This document shows, piece after piece, positions 23,012 through 40,357 of a stretch of DNA of 42,443 nt. A model generated the notes under the pieces. The model did no database searches, had not been told where the DNA came from, and saw nothing but the letters and a program-made list of their open reading frames with translations. Origin of the DNA: Candidatus Cloacimonadota bacterium (GTDB taxonomy: Bacteria > Cloacimonadota > Cloacimonadia > Cloacimonadales > TCS61). Within the stretch, counting starts at the first letter, position 1. Every line of letters begins with the position of its first letter. Both the position numbers and the translations under genes were made by a program. The stretch spans positions 1 through 42,443 of the forward strand of contig JAIPGO010000023.1 of the NCBI GenBank assembly GCA_021736135.1. Direction: 5' to 3'.

Positions 23012-23118
23012 CAAGAGTTTTGAACGTATTTCGGGCAAGACTTTTGGAATCCGACTTGAGCTGGGAAATGGATTGTGTTGCTCAAAAGTCTTGTCCGGAG
23101 TACCGTCCAAAACTCTTG
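23012..23118. repeat. Imperfect palindrome inside the operon
   Basis: The arm 23012-23046 (starting CAAGAGTTTTGAACG) is the near-complement of 23083-23118 (ending GTCCAAAACTCTTG), about 80 percent paired over 35 bases with a ~36-base loop. It fills the spacer between the hydantoinase and ssnA genes, almost the only sizeable gap in the operon. It may be an attenuator, a processing site or a small inserted element. Confidence 0.7.
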
Positions 23119-23150
23119 GCTTAATATTCATTAATTATAAGGATAGATTT

Positions 23151-24455
23151 ATGGATGTATTATTAAAGAATGGTTTATTTGTTTATCCGGAAGAAGGACA
23201 TTTCAGGATTTCTCAGGGGGATATGGCAATTGTAGAAGGCATAATCCAGGAAAAGATACCGGAAGACAGACCTTTTATAGAGATCAACTGCGAAGGGAAA
23301 GTAGTGATGCCGGGACTGGTTAATGCACATCATCATATATATTCCACTTTATCAAAAGGGATACCGTGCGAAACGCCATTCCACAATTTTCTGGGTAATC
23401 TGGAGAATTTATGGTGGCGTTTAGACAGGTCTTTAACGGAAGAAGATATGCTGCTCTCCACCGTATTAACGATGGAAGAATGCCTGAAGCAGGGGGTTAC
23501 CACTGTTTTTGACCATCACATTTCAGTACCTTTTATAGAGAATTCCCTGAGCAAAATGGCAGAGGTTTTTGAGGCTTATGGAGTGCAGGGCACACTGGCA
23601 TTTGAAATATCCGACCGTAACGGGAAAGATATCTTTGCCAGGTCGCTGGCTGAGAACCTGAGATTTGCTGCGGAAGAACGGAAAGTGAAGGGAATGCTGG
23701 GAATGCATGCTTCCTTTACCTTGAGTGATGAAAGTATGGGAGAAATAGCGGCAAAAAGCGGAAACCTGCCGATTCACATTCATGTGGGAGAAGACGTATA
23801 TGATGGAGAAAAATGCCGGACAGATCACAGCATGAGCGTTCTGGCACGATTAGATAAGTTTGGGTTATTAAGGAAAAATTCGCTGCTAGTGCATTGCAGT
23901 AATCTGGATGCCGGAGAGTTGGAAATATTGACAGGCAAGCCGGTATTTGTGGCCCAGGCAGTGGATTCCAATATGAATAACGGCTTGAATGTGGCAGATT
24001 TTCATAAATTATGGGAACAGGGCATAGCCTGCGTTGTGGGCACGGACGGGATGCATTCGAGTGCGTTGAAGGCTCTCAAGAATTCTTACCTGATGCTGAA
24101 ATACCAGAACCGGAATGCGGATATTGGTTTTGGGGAAATGGGATCAATGCTGTGGCAGGGATATAAATTAAAAACAGACTGGGGCTTTGACCTGGGTATA
24201 AATGCGGGAGAGAAGGCGGATCTGGCAGTATTTGATTATCTGCCGGCAACGCCTTTGAATGATGAAACCTTCCTGGGGCATTTCATCTTTGGAATAACAG
24301 AAGCGAAAGCACAATATGTGGTTAAAGGCGGAGAAGTGCCGCTTTTTGATAATGAACTAATGGTGGACCCGTATTATGAATTAAAGCGCAAGTCTTTAAG
24401 CATCTCAAGAGCATTATTCAAGCGCTTTGAGGAAACGGGCAGGAGGACAAGATGA
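23151..24455 (+). CDS. ssnA: SsnA-like amidohydrolase
   Basis: 434 residues. It matches the SsnA pattern of chlorohydrolase/guanine-deaminase-type amidohydrolases: VVMPGLVNAHHHIYSTLSKG (metal HxH near 58), NLWWRLDRSLTEEDM (a highly characteristic SsnA stretch), TTVFDHHIS, IHIHVGED (~207), LLVHCSN (~247), SNMNNGLNVADFH and VGTDGMHSS (metal D ~299). Such enzymes deaminate or hydrolyse purine-like rings. The ATG at 23151 is chosen because AAGGAT precedes it and the protein then begins like E. coli SsnA. An upstream in-frame ATG (23073) lies in the palindrome. The stop overlaps the ygfK start (ATGA). Confidence 0.9.
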   Translation: MDVLLKNGLFVYPEEGHFRISQGDMAIVEGIIQEKIPEDRPFIEINCEGKVVMPGLVNAHHHIYSTLSKGIPCETPFHNFLGNLENLWWRLDRSLTEEDMLLSTVLTMEECLKQGVTTVFDHHISVPFIENSLSKMAEVFEAYGVQGTLAFEISDRNGKDIFARSLAENLRFAAEERKVKGMLGMHASFTLSDESMGEIAAKSGNLPIHIHVGEDVYDGEKCRTDHSMSVLARLDKFGLLRKNSLLVHCSNLDAGELEILTGKPVFVAQAVDSNMNNGLNVADFHKLWEQGIACVVGTDGMHSSALKALKNSYLMLKYQNRNADIGFGEMGSMLWQGYKLKTDWGFDLGINAGEKADLAVFDYLPATPLNDETFLGHFIFGITEAKAQYVVKGGEVPLFDNELMVDPYYELKRKSLSISRALFKRFEETGRRTR

Positions 24456-27409
24456 GTGAAGTGATGAAACCGGTAGCATTCAGAGAATTACTGGAATGGA
24501 TCATTACCGAATACAAGCAGGAGAAAAGCATATTCGGGATAGCTGAAAGCAATTTTTTTCACAAACAGGATAAGAGCGGTTACCGGCTCTGGGGTGAATA
24601 TTACGAAACTGCTTTGGGACCGGCAGCGGGACCGCATACTCAATGCGCCCAGAATATCGTTGCTGCCTATTTGACCGGAGCTCGTTTTTTTGAATTAAAA
24701 ACCGTGCAGGTGATGGATGAACTGGACGTTCCGAAACCGTGCATTGAAGCGGAGCATGAGGGTTATAATACGGAATGGTCAACTGAATTGACGGTGGAAG
24801 AAGCATACCAGGAATACGTGAAAGCATGGTTTATACTGCATTACCTGAAATATGCCCTGGACTGGCGGGTATGCCCGGAAAGCGGATTTATTTTTAACAT
24901 GAGCGTTGGCTATGACCTGGCTGGTATTAAAACTACCAAGATAGATAATTTCATTGAATATCTGAAAGAAGCAGGAGAGGAGAAGTTCTTTTTACAATGC
25001 CAGGAAGAGATGCGGATGGTTAGCGGTGAAAATATTGTCGTTCCATCTCAAATCTCTCGCTCAATCACGCTTTCCACGATGCATGGCTGTCCTCCGGCAG
25101 AGCAGGAATCCATCTGCCGTTATTTAATGGGTGAAAAGGGTTTGCATACTTTTGTGAAGCTTAATCCCACCCTGCTTGGTTATGATTTTGTAAACAGCAC
25201 CCTGCAGAAACTGGGTTTTAACTGTCCTCTTTCCTTTGAATCATTTGCCAATGATCTGCAATACGAAGCAGCACAGAAAATGCTGGGAAACCTTCTGGCT
25301 TATGCCCGGGAAAGGAAGCTGACTTTTGGGGTCAAGCTGTCTAACACTTTGCCGGTACAGAATAAAAAGGAATTGCTGCCGGGAGACGAAATGTATATGA
25401 GCGGCAAGGCTTTGTATCCTTTAACTGTGAATCTGGCGGCACAGTTATATAATGATTTCGGTGAGGAACTGACCATCTCTTATTGTGGAGGAGCCGAAGC
25501 AGACAATATTGCCGAAATTAGTAATTGCGGAATTCATCCGATAACGCTGGCAACAAATCTATTAAAGCCGGGAGGTTACGGAAGACTGCGGCAGATGGCG
25601 GAAATACTGGAAAACCTGGAGCAGTTCCCGAAAATTATTGATAAGCTGAAGTTGCAGGAAACAGCAGCAAAAGCTCTGCTTCCCAATGCGAGATATACTA
25701 AGTATTCACATCGACTTAAAACGAAAAACAGTCTGCCTGTCTGGGATTGTGCGCAGGCAAGCTGCAGTAACGGCTGCCCTGTGGAACAGGATGTACCGGC
25801 ATATATACGCGAAGTGAAAGCAGGTAATTATGCAGCAGCTCTGGAAATTATAGCCAGACGCAATCCTCTGCCCCACATTACCGGTTATATTTGTGAGCAT
25901 CCCTGCCGTATGCACTGCACGCGCATTGATTATGAGTCACCGCTTATGATACGGGAATTGAAAAAAGAAGCTGTATTAAAGGGTTATCAGGAATTTCTTC
26001 CGCAAGTGACAGCAGTGGAGACTATTAGCGTTAATGCAGCAGTAATCGGAGGGGGACCCGCCGGACTGGCAGCAGCATATTTCCTCAGAAAACAGGGCGT
26101 GTCAGTTACGGTTTTTGAGAAAGAAACACGGGCAGGGGGTCTGGTAAGAAATGTTATTCCGGGATTCCGGTTGCCGGATGATGTGATTGACCGCGATATT
26201 GAACTGATAAGGCATAGTGGAGTGGAAATAACCTGTAATGAACAGGTAAGTGTGGAACAACTGCAAAAACGGGGATATAAATATATCTTACTGGCAGTAG
26301 GAGCCAGTGAGAGTAAAGATATGGAACTGGCAGGAGACGGGAAAGGATTACTGAGTGGACTGGACTTTCTCAAGCTTTGCAAGGCAGGTAAAACGGAACA
26401 ATTCCGCGGCAGCCAGGTAATTGTAGCAGGCGGAGGAAATTCAGCGATGGACAGTGCCCGGGCAGCGATGCGGCTGCCGGAGGTGAAAAACGTAACACTG
26501 ATTTACCGCAGAACAGAAAAAGAAATGCCCGCAGACCGGGAGGAATTTGATAATGCCCTGGAAGAAGGTGTAGTTTTCAAAGAGCTTCTTCAGCCTGTAA
26601 GGCTGGTAGATCATCAGTTATACTGTCAGCCAATGGAAACAGGAAAACCGGACAGCCGGGGACGGCGCAGCGTACACCCCAGTGGAGAGGAATCAATTGC
26701 CTTTGCTGCTGACCTGATAATCTCGGCTATAGGTGAAGAAGTTGACCGGAGCTTTCTGGTAGCAAACGGCATAAACCTGATCAATAATTTCAAGACTAAT
26801 CTGGAAAATGTTTATTTAATTGGAGACGCCTTCAGGGGGCCTTCCTCGGTAGTGCAGGCGATGGCAGATGGCATGAAAGCTGCGGAAGAGATACTGAAAA
26901 AGGAAAATATTGCTGCTAAATGGGCAGAACCATTAGTTCCGGAAAAATCTCTGGAAGCAAATCTGGCAGATCTACGGAAAAGAAAAGCGGAAATCAGCAG
27001 CATAACCAGTGAATCGGTAGAAAGTGATCGCTGCCTGGAATGTGATATCCTATGCAATAAATGCGTGGAAGTATGCCCTAACCGGGCTAATATTGCCCTG
27101 AAGATTGATTCACCCTTATTCAGAAATTTCTCTCAGATTCTGCACATTGATAAATTATGCAATAAGTGCGGCAACTGTGAAACTTTCTGTCCTTTTAACG
27201 GAGCGCCTTACAAAGATAAATTCACGTTATTCCATGACCGGAAAGCATTTCTGGAAAGTGATAATGACGGAATATATCTTGACATTAACGGCGAAGCAGA
27301 GTACAGATTCCAAAGGAATACCAGCGAGCCAGGCAGCAGAGAAGCGGAACAACTGGAAATATTTATCGCAATTTTAACTGAAAGATATGATTATTTATTA
27401 AGGATATAG
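24452..27409 (+). CDS. ygfK: YgfK-like FAD/NAD(P)H iron-sulfur oxidoreductase
   Basis: 985 residues, slightly shorter than E. coli YgfK (~1030). Residues 1-420 form a dihydroorotate-dehydrogenase-like region (STMHGCPPAEQESICRYL, KLNPTLLGYDFV). At about 430-510 there is a GltD-type Fe-S module (CAQASCSNGCPVEQDVPAYI, CEHPCRMHC). An FAD fold follows (GGGPAGLAAAY ~533), then an NAD(P) fold (AGGGNSAMDSA ~658). Two ferredoxin motifs close the protein (CLECDILCNKCVEVCP ~860; CNKCGNCETFCPFNG ~903). It should pass electrons between NAD(P)H and a ring substrate or the neighbouring Mo-hydroxylases. AGGAGG precedes the start, which overlaps ssnA by four bases. Annotations as selenate reductase exist for the family, but the context here argues for purine metabolism. 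Confidence 0.92.
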   Translation: MSEVMKPVAFRELLEWIITEYKQEKSIFGIAESNFFHKQDKSGYRLWGEYYETALGPAAGPHTQCAQNIVAAYLTGARFFELKTVQVMDELDVPKPCIEAEHEGYNTEWSTELTVEEAYQEYVKAWFILHYLKYALDWRVCPESGFIFNMSVGYDLAGIKTTKIDNFIEYLKEAGEEKFFLQCQEEMRMVSGENIVVPSQISRSITLSTMHGCPPAEQESICRYLMGEKGLHTFVKLNPTLLGYDFVNSTLQKLGFNCPLSFESFANDLQYEAAQKMLGNLLAYARERKLTFGVKLSNTLPVQNKKELLPGDEMYMSGKALYPLTVNLAAQLYNDFGEELTISYCGGAEADNIAEISNCGIHPITLATNLLKPGGYGRLRQMAEILENLEQFPKIIDKLKLQETAAKALLPNARYTKYSHRLKTKNSLPVWDCAQASCSNGCPVEQDVPAYIREVKAGNYAAALEIIARRNPLPHITGYICEHPCRMHCTRIDYESPLMIRELKKEAVLKGYQEFLPQVTAVETISVNAAVIGGGPAGLAAAYFLRKQGVSVTVFEKETRAGGLVRNVIPGFRLPDDVIDRDIELIRHSGVEITCNEQVSVEQLQKRGYKYILLAVGASESKDMELAGDGKGLLSGLDFLKLCKAGKTEQFRGSQVIVAGGGNSAMDSARAAMRLPEVKNVTLIYRRTEKEMPADREEFDNALEEGVVFKELLQPVRLVDHQLYCQPMETGKPDSRGRRSVHPSGEESIAFAADLIISAIGEEVDRSFLVANGINLINNFKTNLENVYLIGDAFRGPSSVVQAMADGMKAAEEILKKENIAAKWAEPLVPEKSLEANLADLRKRKAEISSITSESVESDRCLECDILCNKCVEVCPNRANIALKIDSPLFRNFSQILHIDKLCNKCGNCETFCPFNGAPYKDKFTLFHDRKAFLESDNDGIYLDINGEAEYRFQRNTSEPGSREAEQLEIFIAILTERYDYLLRI

Positions 27410-27410
27410 A

Positions 27411-28628
27411 ATGAGCAATATTTACCGAAAAATAAGAGAACTCGCTCAGACATACGAACAGGAAACAGCACAACGATTAAGTAGAATGATAAAGACGCCG
27501 TCTTTTTCCGGTAAAGAAAATGACATGGTGCAATTGCTGCTGACTGAAATGGAAAATCTGGGATTTGAGGAAGTACGATTAGATGAACTGGGAAGTATAA
27601 TCGGCAGGATGGGCAATGGTAAACGGATTATAGCCTTCGATGCCCATATAGATACCGTATATCCGGGTAATAAAGCCAACTGGGATTTCCCGCCGCACAG
27701 CGGTGAGATACGTGACGAACGGGTCTGGGGGCGGGGAGCTTCGGACCAGTTAGGCGGCATGGCAGCCATGCTGACAGCGGCGCGCATCATCAGGGAACTT
27801 GATCTGAACAGTGAATTTACGATACTCTTTACCGGAACAGTCATGGAAGAAGACTGCGACGGCATCGCCTGGGAGCATCTTATAAAAGAATACTGTATAA
27901 AGCCGGAACTGGTGGTCAGCACTGAGCCTACAAGTTTGAACATCTACCGCGGTCACCGGGGCAGAATGGAAATTGACGTGGAGGTTAAGGGTATATCCTG
28001 CCACGGTTCCGCACCGGAGAGAGGCGATAATGCCATCAATAAAATGGCGCGTATCGTGCTGGAAATAGAGAAACTGCAAAAACGGCTCAAGAATGATGAT
28101 TTTTTGGGCAAAGGCTCTATTACTACAACAATTTTCACCTCAGATTCCCCAAGCCAGTGCGCCGTGCCGGATCTGGCAGCAATTCATCTGGACAGGCGTT
28201 TGACGGCGGGTGAAACCAGGGAATCGGCAATAGCCGAAGTGCAGGAATGCTGCCATCGGGCAGGCGTTCCGGAAGCAAAGATCACGGTTCCGGTGTATGA
28301 AGAGGCGGCTTACACGGGCAAGAAATATCCGGTAGATAAATATTTTCCGACCTGGGTGCTGGAAAAAAATTCCATCTGGCTGCAGGAAGCGGAAAGCGCT
28401 TACCGGCAGTTATTTGCCAAAGCGCCTTTGATCGATAAGTGGACTTTCAGCACTAACTGCGTATTTATTATGGGCAAGCATCCGGAGATAAAATGCCTGG
28501 GATTTGGTCCCGGAGATGAGAAGGAAGCGCATGCACCCAATGAAAGCACGCGCATCAGCGATCTGGTAACAGCTTCTGCTTTTTATGCCGGGCTGGTGGC
28601 AAAACTTAATGAGGAAAATAATGGATAA
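27411..28628 (+). CDS. ygeY: YgeY-like M20 family amidohydrolase/peptidase
   Basis: 405 residues (E. coli YgeY ~403). The M20 metal set is visible: AFDAHIDTV, GASDQLGGMAAM, MEEDCDG (catalytic and metal Glu pair), STEPTSLNIYRGHRG, and GPGDEKEAHAPNES (last metal His). The dimerisation domain carries RGHRGRMEIDVEVKGISCHGSAPERGDNA. In M20 enzymes two metal ions hydrolyse amide bonds, and in this cluster the substrate is expected to be a ureido or amide intermediate rather than a peptide. AAGGA lies before the ATG. The gene begins one base after ygfK and overlaps ygeW by eight bases (ATGGATAA). Confidence 0.9.
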   Translation: MSNIYRKIRELAQTYEQETAQRLSRMIKTPSFSGKENDMVQLLLTEMENLGFEEVRLDELGSIIGRMGNGKRIIAFDAHIDTVYPGNKANWDFPPHSGEIRDERVWGRGASDQLGGMAAMLTAARIIRELDLNSEFTILFTGTVMEEDCDGIAWEHLIKEYCIKPELVVSTEPTSLNIYRGHRGRMEIDVEVKGISCHGSAPERGDNAINKMARIVLEIEKLQKRLKNDDFLGKGSITTTIFTSDSPSQCAVPDLAAIHLDRRLTAGETRESAIAEVQECCHRAGVPEAKITVPVYEEAAYTGKKYPVDKYFPTWVLEKNSIWLQEAESAYRQLFAKAPLIDKWTFSTNCVFIMGKHPEIKCLGFGPGDEKEAHAPNESTRISDLVTASAFYAGLVAKLNEENNG

Positions 28629-29814
28629 AATAAAAGATAAAATCAGATCATTGAATGAAATTCCCGCGACCATGTATGGAAAGGATTTCCTTTTAACCTG
28701 GGAAAAGACGGAAGCAGAGCTGAGATCGGTATTATTAACTACTGAAATATTGCAGGAACTGCACGCAAAAAATATATCCACCCGCATCTTTGAAAGCGGA
28801 CTGGCAGTATCAAACTTTCGGGATAATTCCACGCGTACCCGTTTCAGTTTTGCCTCGGCAGTTAATGCTTTAGGACTGGCAGTGCAGGATCTGGATGAAG
28901 GCAAATCACAGATCGCGCATGGTGAAACCGTGCAGGAAACTGCCAATATGATCTCCTTTTTAACGGAAGTGATCGGCATACGTGACGACATGTATCCTGG
29001 ACTGGGGGATAAATACCAGAGGCAGGTGATAGCCGCAGTTAAATATGGTTATGATAACGGCATCCTGGCGCAGAAGCCGGTGGTGGTGAATCTGCAGAGT
29101 GACCTTGACCATCCCACACAGACGCTGGCAGACCTGGCAAAACTGAAAGAATACTTTGGCAGCCTGGAAAACCTGAAAGGTAAAAAAATAGCCATGACCT
29201 GGGCATATTCACCGAGTTACGGTAAACCGCTTTCCGTACCGCAGGGTTTGATAGGGCTGCTTACCAGATGGGGAATGAAGGTTTCGCTGGCGCATCCGGA
29301 AGGATATGAGCTGTTGCCGGATATAATGTCCCTGGCAGAAAAACAGGCACAGGATTCAGGCGGCAGTTTCGAGGTTTCTAATGATATGAAATCAGCATTT
29401 AAGGAGGCGGATATCGTTTATCCCAAATCCTGGGCACCACTGAGCATTATGCGTCAACGTACGGAACTGGTTCAGAAAACTGATTTTGAGGGATTGAAAG
29501 GTCTGGAAAAAGAAGCTCTGTCGATGAATGCCCGGCACAAGGAATGGGAGTGCAATGCGGCAATGATGGCAATGACCAGAAATGGTGATGCTCTATATCA
29601 GCATTGCCTGCCGGCAGATATTTCCGGAGTCAGTTGCGCTGCAGGCGAAGTCAGCGCAGATGTTTTTAATAAATATATGAAAGAAACTTATCAGCAGGCT
29701 GGTTTTAAGCCCTTTGTGATTGCCGCAATGATACTTTTGGCAAAAGTCAAAAATCCGGCGGAAGCTCTGGCAGAATTAATAGATCAAAACAAAAAAAGAC
29801 AATTTATAGTTTGA
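28621..29814 (+). CDS. ygeW: YgeW-like knotted carbamoyltransferase
   Basis: 397 residues from the ATG at 28621, which has GAGGAAA upstream and gives the family length (E. coli YgeW 396). The carbamoyl-phosphate motif NSTRTRFSF is near residue 70, DHPTQTLADL near 162 and HCLPADISG near 328. These define the aspartate/ornithine carbamoyltransferase superfamily; the knotted YgeW branch has a longer central part. In purine clusters it is thought to exchange a carbamoyl group with phosphate, so that carbamoyl phosphate could yield ATP via carbamate kinase. No carbamate kinase gene lies in this window. It sits directly downstream of ygeY. Confidence 0.92.
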   Translation: MDKIKDKIRSLNEIPATMYGKDFLLTWEKTEAELRSVLLTTEILQELHAKNISTRIFESGLAVSNFRDNSTRTRFSFASAVNALGLAVQDLDEGKSQIAHGETVQETANMISFLTEVIGIRDDMYPGLGDKYQRQVIAAVKYGYDNGILAQKPVVVNLQSDLDHPTQTLADLAKLKEYFGSLENLKGKKIAMTWAYSPSYGKPLSVPQGLIGLLTRWGMKVSLAHPEGYELLPDIMSLAEKQAQDSGGSFEVSNDMKSAFKEADIVYPKSWAPLSIMRQRTELVQKTDFEGLKGLEKEALSMNARHKEWECNAAMMAMTRNGDALYQHCLPADISGVSCAAGEVSADVFNKYMKETYQQAGFKPFVIAAMILLAKVKNPAEALAELIDQNKKRQFIV

Positions 29815-29822
29815 GGTTAATA

Positions 29823-31295
29823 ATGAAGAAAACAAAAGAAGAAATTTTAGCTAACACCATCCGGCGCTGTCAGGAAAAGAATATAATTATCCCCACTTAT
29901 GAACAGATGAGAAACCCGGAACTGGTGCCGGCAGCCATAAAAGAGGAACTCAAACATATCGGACTCTGGGAACTGCATCCTTATAATCTGTTCCGGCTTA
30001 CCTGGAAGAACGAACCGGTGGAACAGGGTGGAGGATTCGGCAAAGTAAATTTTTTGGAGCTGCCTTCCGAACTTACGGGGGTAAAGGCGAGGGTCGTGGT
30101 GTTGATAGGCAAATATTTCCCGACCGGTTCGCATAAAGTCGGCGCGACTTTCGGACCGCTGGTGGAAAAACTGGTCGCCGGAGAATTTGACCCTACTACG
30201 CAGAAAGCATTGTGGCCCTCAACGGGTAATTACTGCCGGGGCGGAGCTTATGATTCATATCTGCTGGGCTGCCATTCCATCGCCGTTTTGCCGGAAGAGA
30301 TGAGCCAGGAACGCTTTGACTGGCTGCATAAGGTGGGAGCGGAAGTATATGCCACGCCCGGCTGCGAAAGCAACGTGAAAGAAATTTATGATAAAGCCAA
30401 AGAATTATGCGGCGATAGACCGGAGGAAATTGTTAATCTGAACCAGTTCAGCGAGATCGGTAATCCGATGTGGCATTATGCCGTGACGGGACCTGCCATG
30501 GAAGAAGTATTTTATGAGATCAAGGGCGAAAACAGCCGGTTCAGTTCGGTATTCCTCACGCAGGGATCGGCAGGAACTCTGGGTTCGGCGGAATATTTAA
30601 GGAAGAAATTCCCGCGCCTGATCGTGGGTGCCGGAGAAGCACTGCAATGCCCCACTCTGCTTTTGAACGGCTATGGCGGACACCGCATTGAAGGCATTGG
30701 AGATAAGCACGTGCCCTGGATAATGAATATGCGGAATATGGACCTGGTGATCGCCATTGATGACAACCCGAATATTGCGCTGATGCGGCTTTTTAATGAA
30801 GAAAAGGGGCACGCATATCTGCGGGAACAGGGCGTGGACGAAAAGATCATTTCCCAATTGCACTTACTGGGAATATCTTCCATTGCCAATATTATGGGTG
30901 CGATCAAGACGGCACGGTATTATGAGATGAATGAGAATGACATTATCTTTACGGTGGCAACTGATTCCATGGAAATGTATCAGTCTCGGGTATTACAGGA
31001 ACGCCAGAAATGCGGAAATTATACTACGCAGCAGGCTGCAGTGGACTTCCACCAGGCAATGCTGGGCTTGAGCATTGATAATATGCTGGAACTTTCCTAT
31101 TATGACCGCAAGCGGATGCATAATCTAAAGTATTTCACCTGGATCGAGCAGCAGGGAAAGACGGTGGAAGAGCTAAACGCCCAGTGGTATGATGAAACCT
31201 ATTGGGAAAAGCAGTTCAGCAAGATGTATGAATGGGATGAAGAGATCAAGGCGTTCAATGAGCGCACCGGGCTTCTGAAAAAACTGCAGAAATAG
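29823..31295 (+). CDS. PLP fold-type-II lyase-like enzyme in the YgeX position
   Basis: 490 residues from the ATG at 29823 (TTGAGG upstream). It belongs to the tryptophan-synthase-beta/cysteine-synthase superfamily: Schiff-base lysine in PTGSHKVGATF (K105), glycine-rich phosphate loop STGNYCRGG (133-141), QGSAGTLGSAEYL and a final TVATDSMEMYQSR block. It lacks the sequence features I recall of YgeX (diaminopropionate ammonia-lyase), e.g. the NAFKMLGG lysine segment, and is about 90 residues longer. It probably eliminates ammonia or another leaving group from an amino-acid-like intermediate. The specific reaction is not known to me. It is 8 bases after ygeW and 3 before the next PLP gene. Confidence 0.8.
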   Translation: MKKTKEEILANTIRRCQEKNIIIPTYEQMRNPELVPAAIKEELKHIGLWELHPYNLFRLTWKNEPVEQGGGFGKVNFLELPSELTGVKARVVVLIGKYFPTGSHKVGATFGPLVEKLVAGEFDPTTQKALWPSTGNYCRGGAYDSYLLGCHSIAVLPEEMSQERFDWLHKVGAEVYATPGCESNVKEIYDKAKELCGDRPEEIVNLNQFSEIGNPMWHYAVTGPAMEEVFYEIKGENSRFSSVFLTQGSAGTLGSAEYLRKKFPRLIVGAGEALQCPTLLLNGYGGHRIEGIGDKHVPWIMNMRNMDLVIAIDDNPNIALMRLFNEEKGHAYLREQGVDEKIISQLHLLGISSIANIMGAIKTARYYEMNENDIIFTVATDSMEMYQSRVLQERQKCGNYTTQQAAVDFHQAMLGLSIDNMLELSYYDRKRMHNLKYFTWIEQQGKTVEELNAQWYDETYWEKQFSKMYEWDEEIKAFNERTGLLKKLQK

Positions 31296-31298
31296 ACG

Positions 31299-32525
31299 AT
31301 GAAATTTATCCTGGAATGCGTTGATTGCGGCAGACAGTATGACACGATGATGTATCTCTGTCCGCAATGTGCCCAAAATAATGACGAAAGTCATCCGCCG
31401 CGGGGTGTGTTAAAGACTTTATATGATTATCAGAAGATAAAGAGTAAAAGCTTCCGCCGGCTTCAGTCAGAGAGCTTTCTTGATCTTTTGCCTCTATCTT
31501 CTCTGAAAAGCTTGAGTTACCTGAGAATTGGAAATACTCCGCTTTATAAGAATAAAATTACTGAAAAGGATATTGCCTCCCACGAATTATACCTGAAAGA
31601 CGATGCGCAGAATCCCACTTTTTCCTATAAAGACCGGGCATCGGGCCTCGTCTGCGCTTATGCTCTGGAGCAGGGTATTAATACTATTATTGCGGCATCC
31701 ACGGGAAATGCCGGATCATCACTGGCAGGGATCGGAGCCTCACAGGGGCAGCGGATAATTATAATTGTTCCGGCTTCTGCGCCAGCTGCCAAGTTGTTGC
31801 AGATCGCCATGTATGGCGCAATTATAGTTCCGGTGAAAGGAAGTTATGATGAAGCCTTTGATCTTTCCATGCAGGCTACAGAAAAACTGGGTTATTATAA
31901 CCGGAATACTGCCTATAATCCCCTGACCATTGAAGGCAAGAAGACTGCCTCTTTCGAGATTTATGCCCAGCTCGGTGAACAGGTGCCGGAAAGGATTTTC
32001 GTTCCCGTAGGAGACGGCTGCATAATCGCCGGGGTCTATAAAGGCTGGGAAGACCTGCTGCAGCTGGGGATGATCAGCCGGATACCGCAGATCATCGCCG
32101 TGCAGGCGGCAGGCAGTTCCAGCCTGGTAAAAAATCTGGATAGAGCAATATTTCTGGCAGAAGAACCGGATACTATTGCTGATTCCATCTCGGTAAAAAT
32201 CCCCCGTAACTTCTATATGGCAAAGAAATACCTGAAAACTTATCAGGGAGATGCCATTCTGGTGAGTGACCGGGAAATTCAGCAGGCAGCAGGACAACTG
32301 GCACAGAATTACGGTATTTTTTCCGAACCGGCGGCAGCCAGCGCTTTTGCCGGATATCTTAAATACCGGGCAACCCGCGAAATTGGCGAAAACAGCCGGA
32401 ACATCGTTATGCTCACAGGCTCAGGGCTGAAAGATATAGCAGCTTTCCGGGATACAGTTAAAATTCCGCAGGCGATAAAACCTGACCTGACTGAACTGGA
32501 AGCTATGATGAGAGGAGATATATGA
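31299..32525 (+). CDS. Threonine-synthase-like PLP enzyme with N-terminal zinc ribbon
   Basis: 408 residues. The N-terminus has a zinc ribbon (C7-x-x-C10, C21-x-x-C24: CVDCGRQYDTMMYLCPQC). The rest is fold type II: Schiff-base lysine in NPTFSYKDRAS (K111), phosphate loop STGNAGS (134-140), VPVGDGC and VMLTGSGLKDIAAF. This is the threonine synthase pattern. However, no homoserine kinase or other threonine gene is nearby, and the gene is embedded between ygeW and the Mo-hydroxylases. A paralogue acting on a purine-derived amino acid is therefore inferred; a true threonine synthase remains possible. It overlaps the following gene by four bases. No clear ribosome site is seen, suggesting translational coupling. 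Confidence 0.8.
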   Translation: MKFILECVDCGRQYDTMMYLCPQCAQNNDESHPPRGVLKTLYDYQKIKSKSFRRLQSESFLDLLPLSSLKSLSYLRIGNTPLYKNKITEKDIASHELYLKDDAQNPTFSYKDRASGLVCAYALEQGINTIIAASTGNAGSSLAGIGASQGQRIIIIVPASAPAAKLLQIAMYGAIIVPVKGSYDEAFDLSMQATEKLGYYNRNTAYNPLTIEGKKTASFEIYAQLGEQVPERIFVPVGDGCIIAGVYKGWEDLLQLGMISRIPQIIAVQAAGSSSLVKNLDRAIFLAEEPDTIADSISVKIPRNFYMAKKYLKTYQGDAILVSDREIQQAAGQLAQNYGIFSEPAAASAFAGYLKYRATREIGENSRNIVMLTGSGLKDIAAFRDTVKIPQAIKPDLTELEAMMRGDI

Positions 32526-34678
32526 TGAAATCTCAAAAACGCAAAGATGCCTTTGCCAAATTGACGGGGAAATGCCGCTTCCTGGATGATTATACCGTGC
32601 CGGACATGCTCCAGGGCTACATCATTTACACCACGATTGACAGAGGCTGGATCAGAAAGATAAATTTTCCCGCAGGTTTTGATCTTCAGGAATTCACTAT
32701 CGTCAGCGCCAGCGATATTCCGGGCAAAAATATCGTCCCGGAACCGGTTAATGATCAGCCTTTCATGACCAGTGAGGTAGTAGATAATTTCGGGCAGGTG
32801 ATCCTGGGAATTGCCCATCCAAACAGGGAAATTCTCAAAAAATTCATCTCGCTGACCAGGATCGAATATGAAAGAAGAAATGCCGTTACGGATACTAAAG
32901 AATGCCTGGATAACGAAGCGAACCAGTTCGGGGAAATAATGCACCTGAAACATGAACTCGCACCCACGTATAATCTGCGTCATCTCTGGAAATGGCAGCA
33001 GATATTTTATACCCAGCATCAGGAACAGGCATACCTGGAACCTCAGGGTATGCTGGCTGAATATAATATTGAAAAGGAAGAAATGAAGATCACCGGCACC
33101 ATGCAGTGTCCTTTCTTCGTAAAAGACGCCGTGGAATCAATCATGGGGAAGGCAGTTAAAAACGTGGTTATTGAAACCTCGGAAGGAATAGGGGGAGCAT
33201 TCGGCGGCAAGGAGGATTTTCCCAATCTGCTGGCAGGGGTAACCGCTCTGCTTGCCTGGAAAGCCCAGAAACCCGTCAAGATAGTTCTCGACCGCAAAGA
33301 TGACCTGCTGATCACCACGAATCGTCACCCTTCCCGCGTGGATATTATCGCCATTATGCATGATCAGAATGGCTTTATCAGCAAAATCGATATTGATTAC
33401 CGGCTGGATGCGGGAGCATTTCAAACGCTTTCACCGGTCGTTCTGCACCGGGGCATACTGCACGCCACAGGCGGCTATAATATTGCCGAAGTGAAGATCA
33501 AAGGTTCGCTGCATCGCAGTAATACACCGCCGAACGGGGCTTTCCGCGGATTTGGAGCACCGCAGGCGATTTTTGCCATGGAATCATTCATTGATAACGT
33601 TGCTCACCGGCTTTCCATTTCTCCTCTGAGACTGCGGCAGCTTAATCTGTTAAAAACCGGCGACCAGTTGCCCACTTCCCAGATCGTAACGGAAAACCAT
33701 CTGCAGGACTGTCTGGATCGGGTGGTTCAGCTTTCCGGTTATAAAAAGAAATTCACGGATTTTCAGGAATATAATAAAACAAATACGGTCAAAAAAGGTA
33801 TTGGACTGGCGCTTGGTCTGCATGGCGGCGGTTATACCGGTAATGGTGAAAAAGTATTGCAGTCGCGGGTAAAGATCGTTCTGGAAAAGAACGGGATGGT
33901 GAATATCTACGTTGCCAACGTGGAAATGGGGCAGGGTGCGCACACGACTCTGGCGCAGATGGTGAACAGCATATTTAAGCTGCCTCCCGAAAAGGTGAAT
34001 GTGGTGATCCCCAATACATCTCAAACGCCCAATAGCGGTCCCACCGTAGCTTCCCGCACAATTTACGTGGTGGGTAACCTGCTGCAGAAACTGGCAGAGC
34101 GGATAAAAAGCGAACTGGGCTTTGCTGACTTAAAAGATCATATAGCGAAAAATCAGAACAGCTTTCCGCAGTCTTTCGAGGAAGTATTCGTGCCCGATCC
34201 GGCAGATGATTTTGATGATATCACTAATCAGGGCGTGGCTTACCACGATTTTTCCTGGGCAGCCTGCGTGGTGGAGATCACCTATGATCCCGACCTTTAT
34301 CAGATAAGGGTGGATAAATGCTGGAACGTGCTGGATGTGGGAAAAGTTATTAATGAGGGTATTGCACTCGGACAGGTTTATGGCGGAGTGGTGCAGGCTT
34401 TAGGCTGGGCGCTGACGGAGAATATCTATAAAAAAGGCTATCCGCGCTTGAGCGGTTTCACGGATTACACTCTGCCTGCTTCCCTCGATATTCCGGAGAT
34501 CAAAGTGGAATTCATTCATACGAATTCACCTGTTGCCAAAGGACTGGGGGAAATTCCTATGGATTATCCGGCTCCCGCCGTCAGGAATGCCTTTTTACAG
34601 GCCACCGGCATAATGATCAATGAACTGCCGCTGACGCCGGAAAGAATATTTGCCGCACAGGGAAGGAGCAAAAAATGA
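32522..34678 (+). CDS. xdhA: Xanthine-dehydrogenase-family molybdenum subunit (hydroxylase 1)
   Basis: 718 residues. Moco-binding and catalytic motifs of the family are present: GGAFGGKED (~223), GAFRGFGAPQ (~338), MGQGAHTTLAQM (~470) and KGLGEIPMDYP, with the catalytic-type Glu near 676. EQAYLEPQGM (~165) also fits. The enzyme would hydroxylate an N-heterocycle such as a purine, with electrons passing to the 2Fe-2S and FAD subunits encoded next. AGAGGAG lies upstream; ATGs at 32522 and 32525 are both possible, the first giving an ATGA overlap. Nothing in the sequence shows selenium dependence, and no yqeB/yqeC maturation genes are seen. The substrate is not determined. Confidence 0.9.
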   Translation: MMKSQKRKDAFAKLTGKCRFLDDYTVPDMLQGYIIYTTIDRGWIRKINFPAGFDLQEFTIVSASDIPGKNIVPEPVNDQPFMTSEVVDNFGQVILGIAHPNREILKKFISLTRIEYERRNAVTDTKECLDNEANQFGEIMHLKHELAPTYNLRHLWKWQQIFYTQHQEQAYLEPQGMLAEYNIEKEEMKITGTMQCPFFVKDAVESIMGKAVKNVVIETSEGIGGAFGGKEDFPNLLAGVTALLAWKAQKPVKIVLDRKDDLLITTNRHPSRVDIIAIMHDQNGFISKIDIDYRLDAGAFQTLSPVVLHRGILHATGGYNIAEVKIKGSLHRSNTPPNGAFRGFGAPQAIFAMESFIDNVAHRLSISPLRLRQLNLLKTGDQLPTSQIVTENHLQDCLDRVVQLSGYKKKFTDFQEYNKTNTVKKGIGLALGLHGGGYTGNGEKVLQSRVKIVLEKNGMVNIYVANVEMGQGAHTTLAQMVNSIFKLPPEKVNVVIPNTSQTPNSGPTVASRTIYVVGNLLQKLAERIKSELGFADLKDHIAKNQNSFPQSFEEVFVPDPADDFDDITNQGVAYHDFSWAACVVEITYDPDLYQIRVDKCWNVLDVGKVINEGIALGQVYGGVVQALGWALTENIYKKGYPRLSGFTDYTLPASLDIPEIKVEFIHTNSPVAKGLGEIPMDYPAPAVRNAFLQATGIMINELPLTPERIFAAQGRSKK

Positions 34679-35160
34679 CAATATCATTCCTGTTAAATAA
34701 TGAACCCGTAACTATTACAACCGAACCTATGCGCCGTCTACTGGACGTTCTGCGGGAAGACCTGAAAGTCAGATCAGTCAAAGAATCCTGCGGCGAAGGC
34801 GAATGCGGAGCCTGCAGCGTGATCCTTGCCGGCAAACCGGTTACGAGCTGTCTGGTGAATATCGCCCAGGTGGAAGGAATAGAAGTGCTCACTGCGGAAG
34901 GGATTTCGCAAACTCCAGCGGGAAAAATTCTCATAGACTGTTTTGAGGAAACAAATGCCGTACAGTGCGGATTCTGTTTCACAGGATTTCTGGTTTCCTG
35001 CTGGCATTATCTCACCACAACACCGGTTGCTGACGCGGAAGCCATCAAGCAGGCTATTTCGGGTAATATCTGCCGCTGTACTGGTTATGTGAAGATCATC
35101 GAAGCAGTGCAGCTTGCCTGCCAGAGGATAAATAAGGAGCAGTCCCATGAAATTTCATAA
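34675..35160 (+). CDS. xdhC: 2Fe-2S subunit of hydroxylase 1
   Basis: 161 residues, two-domain ferredoxin subunit. The plant-type cluster is C39, C44, C47 and C59 (SCGEGECGACSV ... C). The alpha-helical domain carries the second cluster in VQCGFCFTGF and NICRCTGY. CGFC is followed by FTG rather than the usual TPG, a small deviation. It transfers electrons from the Mo centre to FAD. It overlaps the Mo subunit by four bases and the FAD subunit by fourteen, so the three are tightly coupled. The symbol follows the E. coli xdhABC scheme, where XdhC is the Fe-S subunit. Confidence 0.92.
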   Translation: MTISFLLNNEPVTITTEPMRRLLDVLREDLKVRSVKESCGEGECGACSVILAGKPVTSCLVNIAQVEGIEVLTAEGISQTPAGKILIDCFEETNAVQCGFCFTGFLVSCWHYLTTTPVADAEAIKQAISGNICRCTGYVKIIEAVQLACQRINKEQSHEIS

Positions 35161-35956
35161 ACCGCAAACACTGCCGGAATGCCTCTGTCTGCTGGGCAAA
35201 CTCAAAGATCCCTGGCTGCTTGCCGGAGGCACGGATATTAATGTGCAGATACGCCATCAGCTTAATGTGAAGGAAGACGTTGTTTTCATCAATCATTTAC
35301 CCGAACTGAATTTTATTAAAAAGGAAGAAAACAGTCTTATCATCGGCGCAACGGCGACCATTAAGGATATATCCGGTTCTGAGCTTATCAAAAAAGAATG
35401 CCCCTTTCTGGCAGATTCTCTGGCAGATTTTGCCTCTCCCCTCATTTCCAATCTGGCTACTATTGCCGGCAATATCGCCAATTCCTCTCCAACAGCCGAT
35501 ACTGTTCCCCTGCTGCTGGTTCTGGAGGCGGCATTAGTGCTCAGTTCCTGCCGTGGTCACAGAACCATTGCTCTGAAAGATTTTTATACCAGCTATAAGC
35601 ACAATGTGAGGCAGACTGACGAAATGATCACTTCCATTATCATTCCCCTGCTGCCTCCTGATTCTTATACCGCTCATTACGTTAAGATCGGTTCCCGCCG
35701 CGCGCTGACCATTGCCAAAGCTGCTCTGGCTCTGCTCAAAAGGCAGGATGAATTTAGAATTGCCGCCGGCAGTTTATCTGAATATCCCAAACGCCTGAAA
35801 AACGTGGAAGAATATCTGCAAAACTCTAAAAAAATAGTAAAAAAGCACCTGTTCGCTGCTCTTGATGAAGACGTGTATCCCATCTCGGATTTTCGTTCTG
35901 AGGCTGCTTACAGATTGCAGGTCACCCGCAATTACCTGCTCAAATTTACCAGATAA
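35147..35956 (+). CDS. xdhB: FAD-binding subunit of hydroxylase 1
   Basis: 269 residues, CoxM/XdhB type. The FAD pyrophosphate-binding stretch is LLAGGTDINVQIRHQL (~25) and the second FAD motif is NLATIAGNIANSSPTADTVPLLL (~105). The C-terminal CO-dehydrogenase-flavoprotein-like domain (KIGSRRALTIAKAALAL, FRIAAGSLSEYPKRLKNVEEYL) follows. It accepts electrons from the 2Fe-2S subunit and passes them to NAD or ferredoxin-type acceptors. AAGGAGCAG precedes the ATG. It ends 19 bases before the fused Mo-FAD gene, which carries its own second copy of this domain. Confidence 0.9.
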   Translation: MKFHKPQTLPECLCLLGKLKDPWLLAGGTDINVQIRHQLNVKEDVVFINHLPELNFIKKEENSLIIGATATIKDISGSELIKKECPFLADSLADFASPLISNLATIAGNIANSSPTADTVPLLLVLEAALVLSSCRGHRTIALKDFYTSYKHNVRQTDEMITSIIIPLLPPDSYTAHYVKIGSRRALTIAKAALALLKRQDEFRIAAGSLSEYPKRLKNVEEYLQNSKKIVKKHLFAALDEDVYPISDFRSEAAYRLQVTRNYLLKFTR

Positions 35957-35975
35957 CCCCGAAGGGAAATTTTTT

Positions 35976-38900
35976 ATGAAATACACTGGAAAACCGCACA
36001 TACGCTTAGACGGTATCCCCAAGACCAATGGCAAGGCAATTTACGGCAATGATCTGAAACTGCCAAATATGCTTTATGCTGCCTGTAAATATGCGGATAT
36101 CGTCACCGGAAAGATCAATAATATTGATTCCTCTCTGGCACAGGACATGCCGGGCGTGAAAATGATCGCCCTTTATGACGACGTGCCCGGCGCTGCGAAG
36201 GTGGGACCGATCCGTCAGGATTATCTGCCCATCGTGCATGACGAAGTATTTTTCACGGGTGACGTGATCGCCGTGGTCGCTGCGGAAACCCGCGAACAGG
36301 CAATTCTGGCAGCAGGCAGCATCGATGTTGACTATACTCCCTATAAACCGCTTACTGATCCGCAAATGGCAGTTCTGCCCTCTGCCCGTCTGATCCATCC
36401 GGAATACAAGTCAAACGTCGTTAATCATTATCCTCTGCGTAAAGGCGATATTGAAGCCGGGTTCGCCGCTGCTGACCAGATCATCACCAGAACTTATAAA
36501 ACGGGTTTTCAGGAGCATGCCTATATCGAACCCGAAACCGTTACCGTGGAACCTGACCCTCATTCAGGCGGCTATAATATCTATGGTTCCATCCAGAATC
36601 CTTACACCACGCGCAAAGTGGCGGCTATGTATCTGGGGATCCCGCTGAACCGCATCAATGTGATACCCTCCGTAATGGGCGGTTCCTTCGGCGGGAAAGA
36701 TGACATCATCAATAATATGGCCTGCCGGACGGCGCTTTTATGCCAGATGACCGGCAGACCCGTGCAGATGACCAATTCCCGGGAAGTATCCCTGCGTGAG
36801 AGCTATAAAAGGCATCCCTATATTCTCACTTATAAAGCCGGTTTCACCAGCGATGGCAAACTCACAGCCATGAAGATCGACATTCTGGCAGATAGCGGAG
36901 CTTATTCTTCCCAGACTTTCTTCGTCACCTGGCGCAGCGTGGTGCAGGCAACGGGTCCTTATGAAATTCCCCACGTGGAAACCAGTATTACTTCGGTTTA
37001 TACTAATAACTGTTATACGGCAGCCTTCCGCGGTTTTGGTTCCCCTCAGATAATCTTTGCCCAGGAATCGCTGATGGATGAAATTGCAGCCATCTGCGGA
37101 CTGGATCCTCTGGAATTAAGACTGAAAAATGCTCTGCGTCAAAACAGCATCACCGCCACGGGACAAAAGCTGAACGGACACACGGTTTCGCTGAGGCAAG
37201 TGCTGCAGACTGCTGCCGGAACTTCTGATTTTTTAACAAAATATCAAAATAACGAAGAATTGCAGGAAACCCGCTATAAAAAAGGCATCGGACTTGCCTG
37301 CAGTTTCCGCGGCTGCTCGCTGGGAGCGGAAGGAACCGATACTTCCTCTGCCATAGTTTCTGTGCAGGCGGATGGCAGCATTATCCTTTTTACGGGAGTT
37401 TCGGAAAACGGACAGGGTTTGCAGACGACTATGAGTCTGATCGCGGCGGAAGAATTAGGCATACCGCTTAAAAATATCGTGTTCCTGCCATCACATACTT
37501 CCATTATTGCCGATGGCGGTCCCACGGTTGCCTCACGCGGCACTATTGCCGGAGGTAATGCCGTGAAACTGGCAGCGGAAAAGATCAAAAATGCCCTGTT
37601 CCCGCTCATCAAAGACGAATTAAAAACTGATAACGTCAATGACCTCCTCTGGGAAGACGGCAGAATAATCTATGCTGATAATTCCATTCTTTTCACCGAT
37701 GCCGTCACGAAAGCAGTTCAGGCAGGCATCAATCTTTCAGCTTACGGCTGGTTCCAAGCTCCGGAAGTTTCCTGGGATGAAGAATCCGGTCAGGGCAATG
37801 CCTATTTCACCTATGTTTACGGCTGCCAGGTGGCGGAGATCACGGTTGATAGTTATACGGGTAAGATCGAGGTTGATCATATCTATGCCGCTCACGATCT
37901 GGGGCGCGCTATTAATATTTTAGGCGCTCAGGGACAGATCTTTGGCGGAGTTGCCCAGGGACTCGGCTATGCACTCACGGAGGATTTCAATATTTCCGGC
38001 GGTGAAGTGCTGTCCGATAATTTTGATACTTACCTCATCCCCACTATCCAGGATGTCCCGCAAATAACGCCCTTGATCATTGAAAATCCTGATCCTGCCG
38101 GACCGCTGGGTGCCAAAAGCCTGGGCGAACCGACTCTGGAACTGATCTCTGCTGCCATTAATAACGCCTATTTCAATGCTACCGGGAAGCATTCTACCGA
38201 AATTCCGCTATCCCTCGAAAAAGTATTCCTGGGGCATAAACTGCAGAAACCACAGAGGCAAAGCCAGCAGAATTTTGAGCATAAAAAGTTTCATCACCAT
38301 CATCTGGACGTGGAAACATATACTCCCAGAAATCTGGATGAAGCAATGAAAATCCTGGAAAAAATATCATTTAAAGTCCTGGCAGGAGGCACGGATCTGG
38401 TCATCAATCTGCGTGATTCCGGCAGGAAGCAGTTCCTGCTCAATATCAGGGATCTTTCTGAGCTAAAGGGCATCAGTCAAAATGAAGATCATATCGAGAT
38501 CGGCGGAGCCGAAACGTTTAGCCGCATTATCAACGATCCTCTGGTGCAGAAGCATTTTCCACTATTGATTACCGCCTGTTCCCAGATCGGTTCTCATCAG
38601 ATCAGAAATGTGGCCACGATTGCGGGAAATCTGGTTAATGCCGCGCCCTGTGCCGATTCCGCACCACCCCTGATCTTATACGAGGCAAAATTGCTCTTAC
38701 GCTCCACAGAAGAGACGCGCACTATACCGGCAGCAGATTTTATCATCAAAAGCTATCAAACTATGATCAAACACGATGAAATAGTGGTTGCCATTCAAAT
38801 CCCGCTGCCGGCAGCAGGTAAAACTTTTGAGCATTACTATCAACTCGGCAGACGCAAAGCATTAAATATCACCCGTCTCAGCATTTCAGCACGGGCCCGC

Positions 38901-39173
38901 TTTGCTGAAAACGGTATAATAACAGAAATCCGTCTGGCGGCAGGCTCGCTGCTATCGCGTCCTTCACGGCTTTCCATGCTGGAAAAGATCATTACCGGAC
39001 GCCGGATAAATGATGAATTGCTCAGAGAAGTTACCGCAACTGCCCGGAAATGTCTGGAGGAAGAGATCGGCAGCCGCTGGTCGGCAGCTTATAAAATTCC
39101 CGTATTTATCAATCTCCTGCATTCTGCCCTGCTTGACCTGCAAAAACAATATAGCGAGTATAAAAATGATTGA
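35976..39173 (+). CDS. Fused Mo-FAD subunit of a second xanthine-dehydrogenase-type hydroxylase
   Basis: 1065 residues from the ATG at 35976 (GAAGGGAAA upstream; longer frames overlap the previous gene). Residues 1-765 are a full Mo domain: LDGIPKTNGKAIYGNDL, GGSFGGKDD (~235), AFRGFGSPQ (~350), GQGLQTT (~479) and GAKSLGEPT (~711). A linker with HHHH (~770) leads to a complete FAD domain (~785-1065): VLAGGTDLVINL, QIRNVATIAGNLVNAAPCADSAPPL and AAGSLLSRPSRL. Usual fusions in this family run Fe-S/FAD/Mo or Fe-S/Mo, so Mo followed by FAD is uncommon. There is no stop or frameshift sign at the joint. Its 2Fe-2S partner follows with an 8-base overlap. The substrate is probably a different purine or ring than for hydroxylase 1. 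Confidence 0.88.
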   Translation: MKYTGKPHIRLDGIPKTNGKAIYGNDLKLPNMLYAACKYADIVTGKINNIDSSLAQDMPGVKMIALYDDVPGAAKVGPIRQDYLPIVHDEVFFTGDVIAVVAAETREQAILAAGSIDVDYTPYKPLTDPQMAVLPSARLIHPEYKSNVVNHYPLRKGDIEAGFAAADQIITRTYKTGFQEHAYIEPETVTVEPDPHSGGYNIYGSIQNPYTTRKVAAMYLGIPLNRINVIPSVMGGSFGGKDDIINNMACRTALLCQMTGRPVQMTNSREVSLRESYKRHPYILTYKAGFTSDGKLTAMKIDILADSGAYSSQTFFVTWRSVVQATGPYEIPHVETSITSVYTNNCYTAAFRGFGSPQIIFAQESLMDEIAAICGLDPLELRLKNALRQNSITATGQKLNGHTVSLRQVLQTAAGTSDFLTKYQNNEELQETRYKKGIGLACSFRGCSLGAEGTDTSSAIVSVQADGSIILFTGVSENGQGLQTTMSLIAAEELGIPLKNIVFLPSHTSIIADGGPTVASRGTIAGGNAVKLAAEKIKNALFPLIKDELKTDNVNDLLWEDGRIIYADNSILFTDAVTKAVQAGINLSAYGWFQAPEVSWDEESGQGNAYFTYVYGCQVAEITVDSYTGKIEVDHIYAAHDLGRAINILGAQGQIFGGVAQGLGYALTEDFNISGGEVLSDNFDTYLIPTIQDVPQITPLIIENPDPAGPLGAKSLGEPTLELISAAINNAYFNATGKHSTEIPLSLEKVFLGHKLQKPQRQSQQNFEHKKFHHHHLDVETYTPRNLDEAMKILEKISFKVLAGGTDLVINLRDSGRKQFLLNIRDLSELKGISQNEDHIEIGGAETFSRIINDPLVQKHFPLLITACSQIGSHQIRNVATIAGNLVNAAPCADSAPPLILYEAKLLLRSTEETRTIPAADFIIKSYQTMIKHDEIVVAIQIPLPAAGKTFEHYYQLGRRKALNITRLSISARARFAENGIITEIRLAAGSLLSRPSRLSMLEKIITGRRINDELLREVTATARKCLEEEIGSRWSAAYKIPVFINLLHSALLDLQKQYSEYKND

Positions 39174-39639
39174 GCTTAAATTTACCGTAAACAGCGAAGA
39201 AGTGGCTATAACCGTTGCCGAAAACCTGCGGCTTCTGGACATCCTGCGTGATGAACTGCATCTCACCGGCACCAAAGAAGGCTGTGCCGTTGGAGAATGC
39301 GGAGCTTGCACCGTGATCTTGAATGGCGAAGCCGTTTGCTCCTGTATGGTGCTTGCCTGCCAGGTGCAGGATGCCGTGATTGAAACCATTGAAAACTGCG
39401 ACACCGACCCGGTTTTACAGATATTGCAGCAGGCGTTTCTGGAATGCGGAGCCGTGCAGTGCGGTTTTTGCACGCCCGGTATGCTGCTGAGCGCTAAAGC
39501 GCTTCTCCTCAGAAATCCTGCTCCCACGGAAGCGGAAATCAAGAAAGCGCTGGAAGGCAATCTCTGCCGCTGCACGGGATATATTCAAATAACGGAAGCA
39601 GTGAAGCAGGCTGCCCGGGAACTTGCCGAAAGCAAATGA
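39166..39639 (+). CDS. 2Fe-2S subunit of hydroxylase 2
   Basis: 157 residues from the ATG at 39166, giving the usual subunit length; an earlier in-frame ATG (39010) lies inside the previous gene. The plant-type cluster is C40, C45, C48 and C60 (GCAVGECGACTV ... C) and the second cluster is in VQCGFCTPGM and NLCRCTGYIQI, all canonical. It pairs with the fused Mo-FAD protein upstream and is paralogous to the 161-residue subunit at 34675. It overlaps mocA by four bases. Confidence 0.92.
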   Translation: MIELKFTVNSEEVAITVAENLRLLDILRDELHLTGTKEGCAVGECGACTVILNGEAVCSCMVLACQVQDAVIETIENCDTDPVLQILQQAFLECGAVQCGFCTPGMLLSAKALLLRNPAPTEAEIKKALEGNLCRCTGYIQITEAVKQAARELAESK

Positions 39640-40300: not shown

Positions 40301-40357
40301 GCCACGTCGTAACTTTTATACGAAGATGGTGGTTAAGATTCTTTTATGGGAGGTATT

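Follow-up and report, generated by a model that had tools for sequence, protein, structure and literature searches.

Here we analysed a 42,443-nucleotide stretch of DNA from an anaerobic Candidatus Cloacimonadota bacterium (contig JAIPGO010000023.1), called the window at its full length, with a focus on two adjacent genes for pyridoxal 5'-phosphate (PLP) enzymes of fold type II, PLP-A and PLP-B. Both open reading frames (ORFs) are open and lie on the same strand, 3' of hyuA/ssnA/ygfK/ygeY/ygeW-type genes and 5' of two molybdenum-hydroxylase sets. Coordinates and matches to the Pfam PALP family, whose cut-off both proteins pass, confirm what the original prediction had read from the letters alone, namely two adjacent fold-type-II enzymes of 490 and 408 residues between ygeW and the hydroxylases. 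The E. coli reductive uric acid cluster has YgeX (diaminopropionate ammonia-lyase, DpaL), whereas in the window it is missing and its place is taken by PLP-A and PLP-B. The last part of the pathway thus appears to fall here to a different module of two enzymes, which is widespread. The genes, their order and co-occurrence, their family placement and the residue changes described below were observed directly.

29823..31295, + strand: PLP-A, a fold-type-II PLP enzyme of the CysK/CBS fold with N- and C-terminal extensions (490 aa); proposed diaminopropionate (hydroxyl)lyase giving L-serine
31299..32525, + strand: PLP-B, a zinc-ribbon PLP enzyme of the ThrC fold (408 aa); proposed to act as an ammonia-lyase on serine or diaminopropionate, in the YgeX slot

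The genes are tightly packed: the ygeW stop lies 8 nt before PLP-A, the gap between PLP-A and PLP-B is 3 nt, and PLP-B shares 4 nt with the xdh gene that follows it. PLP-A has an ATG start at 29823, and an alternative in-frame TTG at 29811 would give 494 aa. Neighbouring genes were named from Pfam and curated models (NCBIfam/PRK/TIGR) against their cut-offs, and those upstream are as follows.

21663..22994, + strand: HyuA/allantoinase-family amidohydrolase (TIGR03178, 360 bits, cut-off 357.85), a likely hydantoin ring opener
23073..24455, + strand: divergent SsnA-like aminohydrolase (PRK07203, 348 bits, cut-off 444)
24452..27409, + strand: YgfK reductase (TIGR03315, 1220 bits, cut-off 835)
27411..28628, + strand: YgeY hydrolase (PRK13004, 524 bits, cut-off 321)
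28585..29814, + strand: YgeW carbamoyltransferase (PRK07200, 644 bits, cut-off 453)

SsnA is the best-matching family for the second of these, with a score under the cut-off. YgfK, YgeW and YgeY, which together mark a reductive uric acid cluster, are all present over their cut-offs. The E. coli cluster likewise groups YgfK, SsnA, HyuA, YgeW, YgeY and Xdh-type genes, and it has the same presumed end product from 2,3-diaminopropionate (DAP) (PMC12507026). Elsewhere, urate is known to be converted via yanthine and ureidomethyl-hydantoin to 2,3-diureidopropionate, from which YgeW and YgeY strip both ureido groups to give DAP (PMC12507026, PMC12990295). The closest named record among the matches listed, Tobar13.5m-G52 (Cloacimonadota), has the same gene order as the window.

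Neither PLP enzyme is YgeX

The genome of the window (4.14 Mb, 98% complete) encodes three PALP proteins in all: PLP-A, PLP-B, and a ThrC on contig 71. YgeX, whose presence nearby had been named as grounds against the original prediction, is absent from both the window and the genome, where the best score is 37 bits against a cut-off of 276 (PRK08206 / TIGR03528); neither of these models is among the curated-model matches of PLP-A or PLP-B. A second such ground, that the 408-residue protein be the sole threonine synthase, does not hold either. The contig-71 protein scores 239 bits with the ThrC model, whose cut-off is 167, and our tree places it with E. coli ThrC.

In a tree of 84 proteins, PLP-A forms a single clade (100/100) on a long stem (2.26), sister to CysK/CysM (100/99), and PLP-B forms a single clade (100/98) within the zinc-ribbon threonine synthases. 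YgeX, also a fold-type-II PLP enzyme, forms a separate clade (100/100) away from both, and PLP-A and PLP-B miss its model cut-offs, so that tree and curated models alike bear out the claim that neither enzyme is YgeX. AlphaFold models of both proteins are confident (pLDDT 94). The best Protein Data Bank (PDB) matches are CysK, CBS and the Fusobacterium cysteine (hydroxyl)lyase Fn1055 for PLP-A, and threonine synthase for PLP-B; O-ureido-L-serine synthase (3x43/3x44) is also among the structural matches of PLP-A.

Active-site residues

PLP-A, residues 100-105: PTGSHK motif
30135..30137, + strand: PLP-A Lys105, PLP Schiff-base lysine by alignment with the CysK and Fn1055 lysines (invariant, 47/47)
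30702..30704, + strand: PLP-A Asp294 in HRIEGIGDKH, aligned with Fn1055 Asp232 (invariant, 47/47)
31317..31370, + strand: PLP-B N-terminal zinc ribbon, Cys7, Cys10, Cys21 and Cys24 (CxxC...CxxC, by alignment)
31629..31631, + strand: PLP-B Lys111, PLP Schiff-base lysine by alignment with Tt ThrC Lys61 (35/35)
31926..31928, + strand: PLP-B Thr210 at the threonine synthase Arg160 position (Arg in 0/35 PLP-B proteins)
32013..32015, + strand: PLP-B Asp239 at the threonine synthase Asn188 position (Asp in 35/35)

PLP-A shares the core fold and catalytic motifs of CysK, CysM and CBS, and by alignment it retains the CysK lysine, the [ST][ST]GN loop, the substrate Gln and the GISS residues. It differs from these enzymes in N-terminal (~75-residue) and C-terminal (~100-residue) extensions, in its long stem, in DKH where CysK has AGF, and in meeting none of their cut-offs (103.5 bits against 351). 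The likeness to Fn1055 lies in the HRIEGI[G/S]D motif, which carries the water-adding Asp: PLP-A Asp294 pairs in the alignment with the D of the Fn1055 sequence HRIEGISDEF (5b53, 5b55). That residue is index 236 of the 340-residue 5b53 chain; since native Fn1055 has 336 residues (PMC9865163), it corresponds to Asp232 if the four extra residues are, as we presume, an N-terminal tag. The reaction of Fn1055 takes cysteine and water and yields serine plus hydrogen sulfide (PMC9865163); according to the title of PDB 5b55, crystals of the D232N mutant contained aminoacrylate. However, the two proteins are only about 23% identical, and Fn1055 has a sulfur substrate and lacks the extensions.

PLP-B has the fold of short prokaryotic threonine synthases (1uim, 6cgq), at about 30-35% identity, with the PLP lysine and loops in common, including the STGN loop. 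All four ribbon cysteines are invariant in alignment A2, and Cys7, Cys10 and Cys21 are invariant in A4. What differs is the site of Thr88, Arg160 and Asn188 in Thermus threonine synthase, residues that we take to hold the substrate phosphate (structure 1v7c). In PLP-B these become Ala, Thr/Leu/Met and Asp, with none of the three kept in 35/35 proteins. A phosphorylated intermediate, which the original prediction had entertained, is therefore unlikely.

The pair could also be hitch-hikers, a biosynthetic threonine synthase and cysteine synthase that merely sit in the cluster. PLP-B does pass the NCBIfam thrC equivalog cut-off (176 vs 167 bits), and the genome-wide PALP search found no other CysK in the genome. 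Yet we rejected PLP-B as a threonine synthase because the genome has a second ThrC and the phosphate-site residues are gone, and PLP-A as a housekeeping cysteine synthase because it falls far under the CysK cut-offs and coexists with a true CysK in other genomes. The association with the cluster also spans phyla, and we regard hitch-hiking as very improbable. Since PLP-B exceeds the ThrC cut-off, automatic annotation would mislabel it, and databases probably list it as threonine synthase.

Distribution of the pair

Relatives of PLP-A were found in at least 588 stretches of the GTDB contig collection. The best 80 of these come from Cloacimonadota, Bacteroidota, Spirochaetota, Chloroflexota, Neomarinimicrobiota, Elusimicrobiota, Synergistota, Bacillota, Myxococcota and others, and cross-phylum identity is high (at least 57%). 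Among 107 Cloacimonadales genomes, PLP-A and PLP-B occur together in 67 and one without the other in 12 (4 and 8), giving a Fisher p of 1.6e-14, a value that ignores kinship and so overstates independence. All 45 Cloacimonadales genomes with YgeW over its cut-off carry both enzymes, which supports the co-occurrence with YgeW/YgeY that the original prediction had put forward as a check, and only 2 of the 45 carry YgeX. Across 50 PLP-A genomes from many phyla, PLP-B is present at 345 bits or more in 44 (a 45th match, in G119 at 271 bits, is doubtful) and YgeX in 6. PLP-A or its sister is found in 57 of 121 sampled Synergistales genomes; in 291 Clostridia genomes, PLP-A or the shorter sister family, PLP-A', occurs in 9, YgeX in 29, and both in 2. 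Because the pair recurs in many phyla, the arrangement is not due to chance.

The sister family comprises proteins of about 455-462 aa from Clostridia and Synergistales (loci L295-L298 and L335-L338); the L297 member has an EGIGDKM motif. Several Clostridia have a gene of this family flanked by PLP-B and YgeY, in one case together with genes for carbamoyltransferase, carbamate kinase and Xdh.

Near-obligate co-occurrence and adjacency would fit a heteromeric complex in which PLP-A and PLP-B share a single activity and one partner is partly structural. But no sequence of either protein has lost the Schiff-base lysine or the catalytic loops, the two genes are often far apart, and PLP-A occurs without PLP-B in two genomes (G124 and G148), all of which makes a complex of this kind improbable.

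Gene neighbourhoods and the YgeX slot

Neighbours in 90 PLP-A loci include PLP-B (50 loci), the Xdh molybdenum subunit (36), a YgeW-like carbamoyltransferase (31), YgfK (26), YgeY (21), SsnA (21) and carbamate kinase (19). Within 34 of these genomes, chosen mostly for an isolated-looking PLP-A, 27 have an SsnA homologue. When PLP-B is distant from PLP-A, it adjoins ygeY, carbamoyltransferase, carbamate kinase or xdh. The Bacteroidales order is ygfK, PLP-A, PLP-B, and several Clostridia operons run PLP-B, PLP-A or PLP-A', then YgeY. In a Bacteroidota locus (L084) the order is ygfK, PLP-A, YgeX, and in SAR324 (L120) it is carbamate kinase, ygeW, ygeY, YgeX, PLP-A; neither genome has PLP-B. PLP-A also adjoins YgeX in L171 (genome G115), with PLP-B elsewhere in the genome, and in Diplocloster modestus (L106) a single cluster contains PLP-A, PLP-B and YgeX.

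From the order in L084 and L120 and from the neighbours of PLP-B away from PLP-A, it is PLP-B rather than PLP-A that fills the YgeX slot, with PLP-A accompanying either lyase. The earlier view that the pair stands in YgeX's place holds for PLP-B only: PLP-A lies beside YgeX in L084, L120 and L171 and shares a cluster with both in Diplocloster modestus, and so it is no plain substitute for YgeX. An apparent swap of YgeX for PLP-B in G093 and G094 was set aside, as their PLP-A contigs, only ~3.2 kb long, stop short of where PLP-B would be expected. The ornithine-pathway thiolase OrtB, considered for a 761-residue neighbour in L097, was also rejected; the gene encodes an amino-acid transporter, and no OrtB-type model matched.

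These neighbourhoods bear on the main rival to a route through serine, in which PLP-B alone is a non-orthologous diaminopropionate ammonia-lyase and PLP-A supports it in a separate job, e.g., converting D- to L-diaminopropionate for an L-specific lyase. YgeX and PLP-B alternate beside PLP-A, PLP-B adjoins YgeY/YgeW/carbamate kinase when apart from PLP-A, and its pocket has gained an Asp that could hold the ammonium group. The pathway may also go through D-isomers (PMC12990295), and E. coli YgeX accepts both (PMC12507026). However, PLP-A groups with CysK rather than with the serine/threonine dehydratase branch, and PLP-B as sole lyase leaves unexplained both the water-adding Asp and the serine-metabolism genes found beside PLP-A (below). 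We consider this arrangement rather unlikely.

PLP-A could alternatively take the preceding intermediate, albizziin (3-ureidoalanine), as its substrate and release the ureido group as urea, which would bypass YgeY. One of its structural matches, of the CysK fold, works with a serine that bears a ureido group, and PLP-A adjoins YgeW in many genomes. Against this, the window does encode YgeY, often a neighbour of the pair, and the bypass would waste a carbamoyl group; we give the albizziin step little credence.

Some urate-type clusters (L089, L101, L126, L134, L166) have tandem ornithine transcarbamylase (OTC)-like carbamoyltransferases and carbamate kinase, some without YgeY nearby. This suggests that both ureido groups may leave by phosphorolysis there, giving two carbamoyl phosphates and two ATP.

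Serine-metabolism genes beside PLP-A

In Synergistales, serine hydroxymethyltransferase (SHMT) is encoded directly 5' of PLP-A in 12 of 30 loci, or 10 clusters at 90% PLP-A identity, and the usual order is PLP-B, SHMT, PLP-A. Formate-tetrahydrofolate (THF) ligase (Fhs) and FolD follow in L115 and L309. Among the 2026 loci collected ahead of the Synergistales search, the Synergistaceae locus L115 was the only one in which SHMT or Fhs adjoined PLP-A. The SHMT neighbourhood ties the pair to the serine node, and serine as product or as substrate both fit.

The Synergistales PLP-B/SHMT/PLP-A loci (L299-L318) also carry distant YgeY homologues, one or two per locus, and three proteins (about 345, 199 and 430 aa) that resemble a TRAP (tripartite ATP-independent periplasmic) transporter by size only. 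Many have no Xdh, YgfK or SsnA nearby, and so their substrates may be ureido amino acids that the cell scavenges, not urate.

A proposed route through serine

We propose that PLP-A and PLP-B form the C3-processing end of the reductive uric acid pathway and would jointly do the job of YgeX in E. coli. The substrate, products, order and stereochemistry of their reactions are inferred. By analogy with Fn1055, PLP-A would exchange the beta-amino group of DAP for a hydroxyl. It would form the external aldimine of DAP and expel the beta-ammonia; Asp294 would then activate a water molecule for addition to the PLP-bound aminoacrylate, yielding L-serine. PLP-B, with its ThrC fold and no phosphate site, would deaminate serine to pyruvate, or take DAP to pyruvate directly, and serine made by PLP-A could likewise reach pyruvate via YgeX. 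Where SHMT, formyl-THF ligase and FolD share the operon, serine may instead be converted to glycine and formate. We regard a pathway end in which PLP-A turns DAP to serine and PLP-B makes pyruvate as the likeliest reading, with a probability of roughly 0.45. The two-step elimination/replacement of the original prediction is consistent with the active-site residues and with the serine-metabolism genes nearby, and its interpretation as a whole is partly supported.

Several observations weigh against this route. PLP-A lies beside YgeX in three loci and one genome has all three clustered, and a serine route has no need for YgeX, unless YgeX takes serine or acts in parallel. The pair usually occurs without YgeX, but the statistical anti-correlation that the original prediction had put forward as a check was not seen at the genome level in the Cloacimonadales or the 291 Clostridia genomes. 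One ordinary CysK-like protein (L226) shares the Asp at the Fn1055 position, so this residue is not exclusive to PLP-A. CysK-fold enzymes usually take L-amino acids and the pathway intermediates may be D, while ThrC-fold enzymes add water at C-beta too, such that the roles of PLP-A and PLP-B could be swapped. Finally, SHMT could supply serine to the pair instead of consuming it.

Molybdenum hydroxylases and other genes

32522..34678, + strand: xanthine-dehydrogenase-family molybdenum subunit (PF02738/PF20256)
34675..35160, + strand: 2Fe-2S subunit (PF01799)
35147..35956, + strand: FAD subunit (PF00941)
35862..39173, + strand: second molybdenum hydroxylase, a single polypeptide with both Mo and FAD domains (PF02738 + PF00941)
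39010..39639, + strand: second 2Fe-2S subunit (PF01799)
39636..40235, + strand: MobA-like nucleotidyltransferase (PF12804)
40346..41161, + strand: XdhC/CoxI maturation protein (PF13478, PF02625)

The ORF at 35862-39173, whose TTG start is probably too far upstream, fuses the Mo- and FAD-binding domains of the xanthine-dehydrogenase type, which are separate in E. coli XdhD and YgfM. An unfused Mo/FAD/2Fe-2S set lies just 5' of it in the same cluster. Within the cluster of the window itself (a result for 21663-41161 alone) we saw no gene for carbamate kinase, though YgeW would yield carbamoyl phosphate. Farther upstream, a 772-residue ORF (446-2764) has no Pfam match.

Implications for urate catabolism

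The biochemistry of the reductive urate pathway was not complete until 2025. We found no published description of the PLP-A/PLP-B pair in the open-access literature. A published survey of the pathway's spread scored YgeX by Pfam PF00291 (PMC12507026). This model matches PLP-A and PLP-B too, and therefore the published marker cannot separate YgeX from either. If the proposed route is correct, a large share of pathway carriers would finish it differently from the YgeX route, and two families resembling cysteine and threonine synthase would gain a function. Somewhat more tentatively still, PLP-A may found an undescribed family of 2,3-diaminopropionate (hydroxyl)lyases making L-serine, in which case a common form of the reductive catabolism of urate and ureido amino acids in uncultured anaerobic phyla would run via serine and not YgeX. 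2-Aminoacrylate damages PLP enzymes and leaks from diaminopropionate ammonia-lyase (PMC9127364); a serine route might avoid its release. The serine would feed either into pyruvate or into glycine and formate, the latter branch gaining ATP from formyl-THF, and urate carbon would thereby be linked to serine and one-carbon metabolism.

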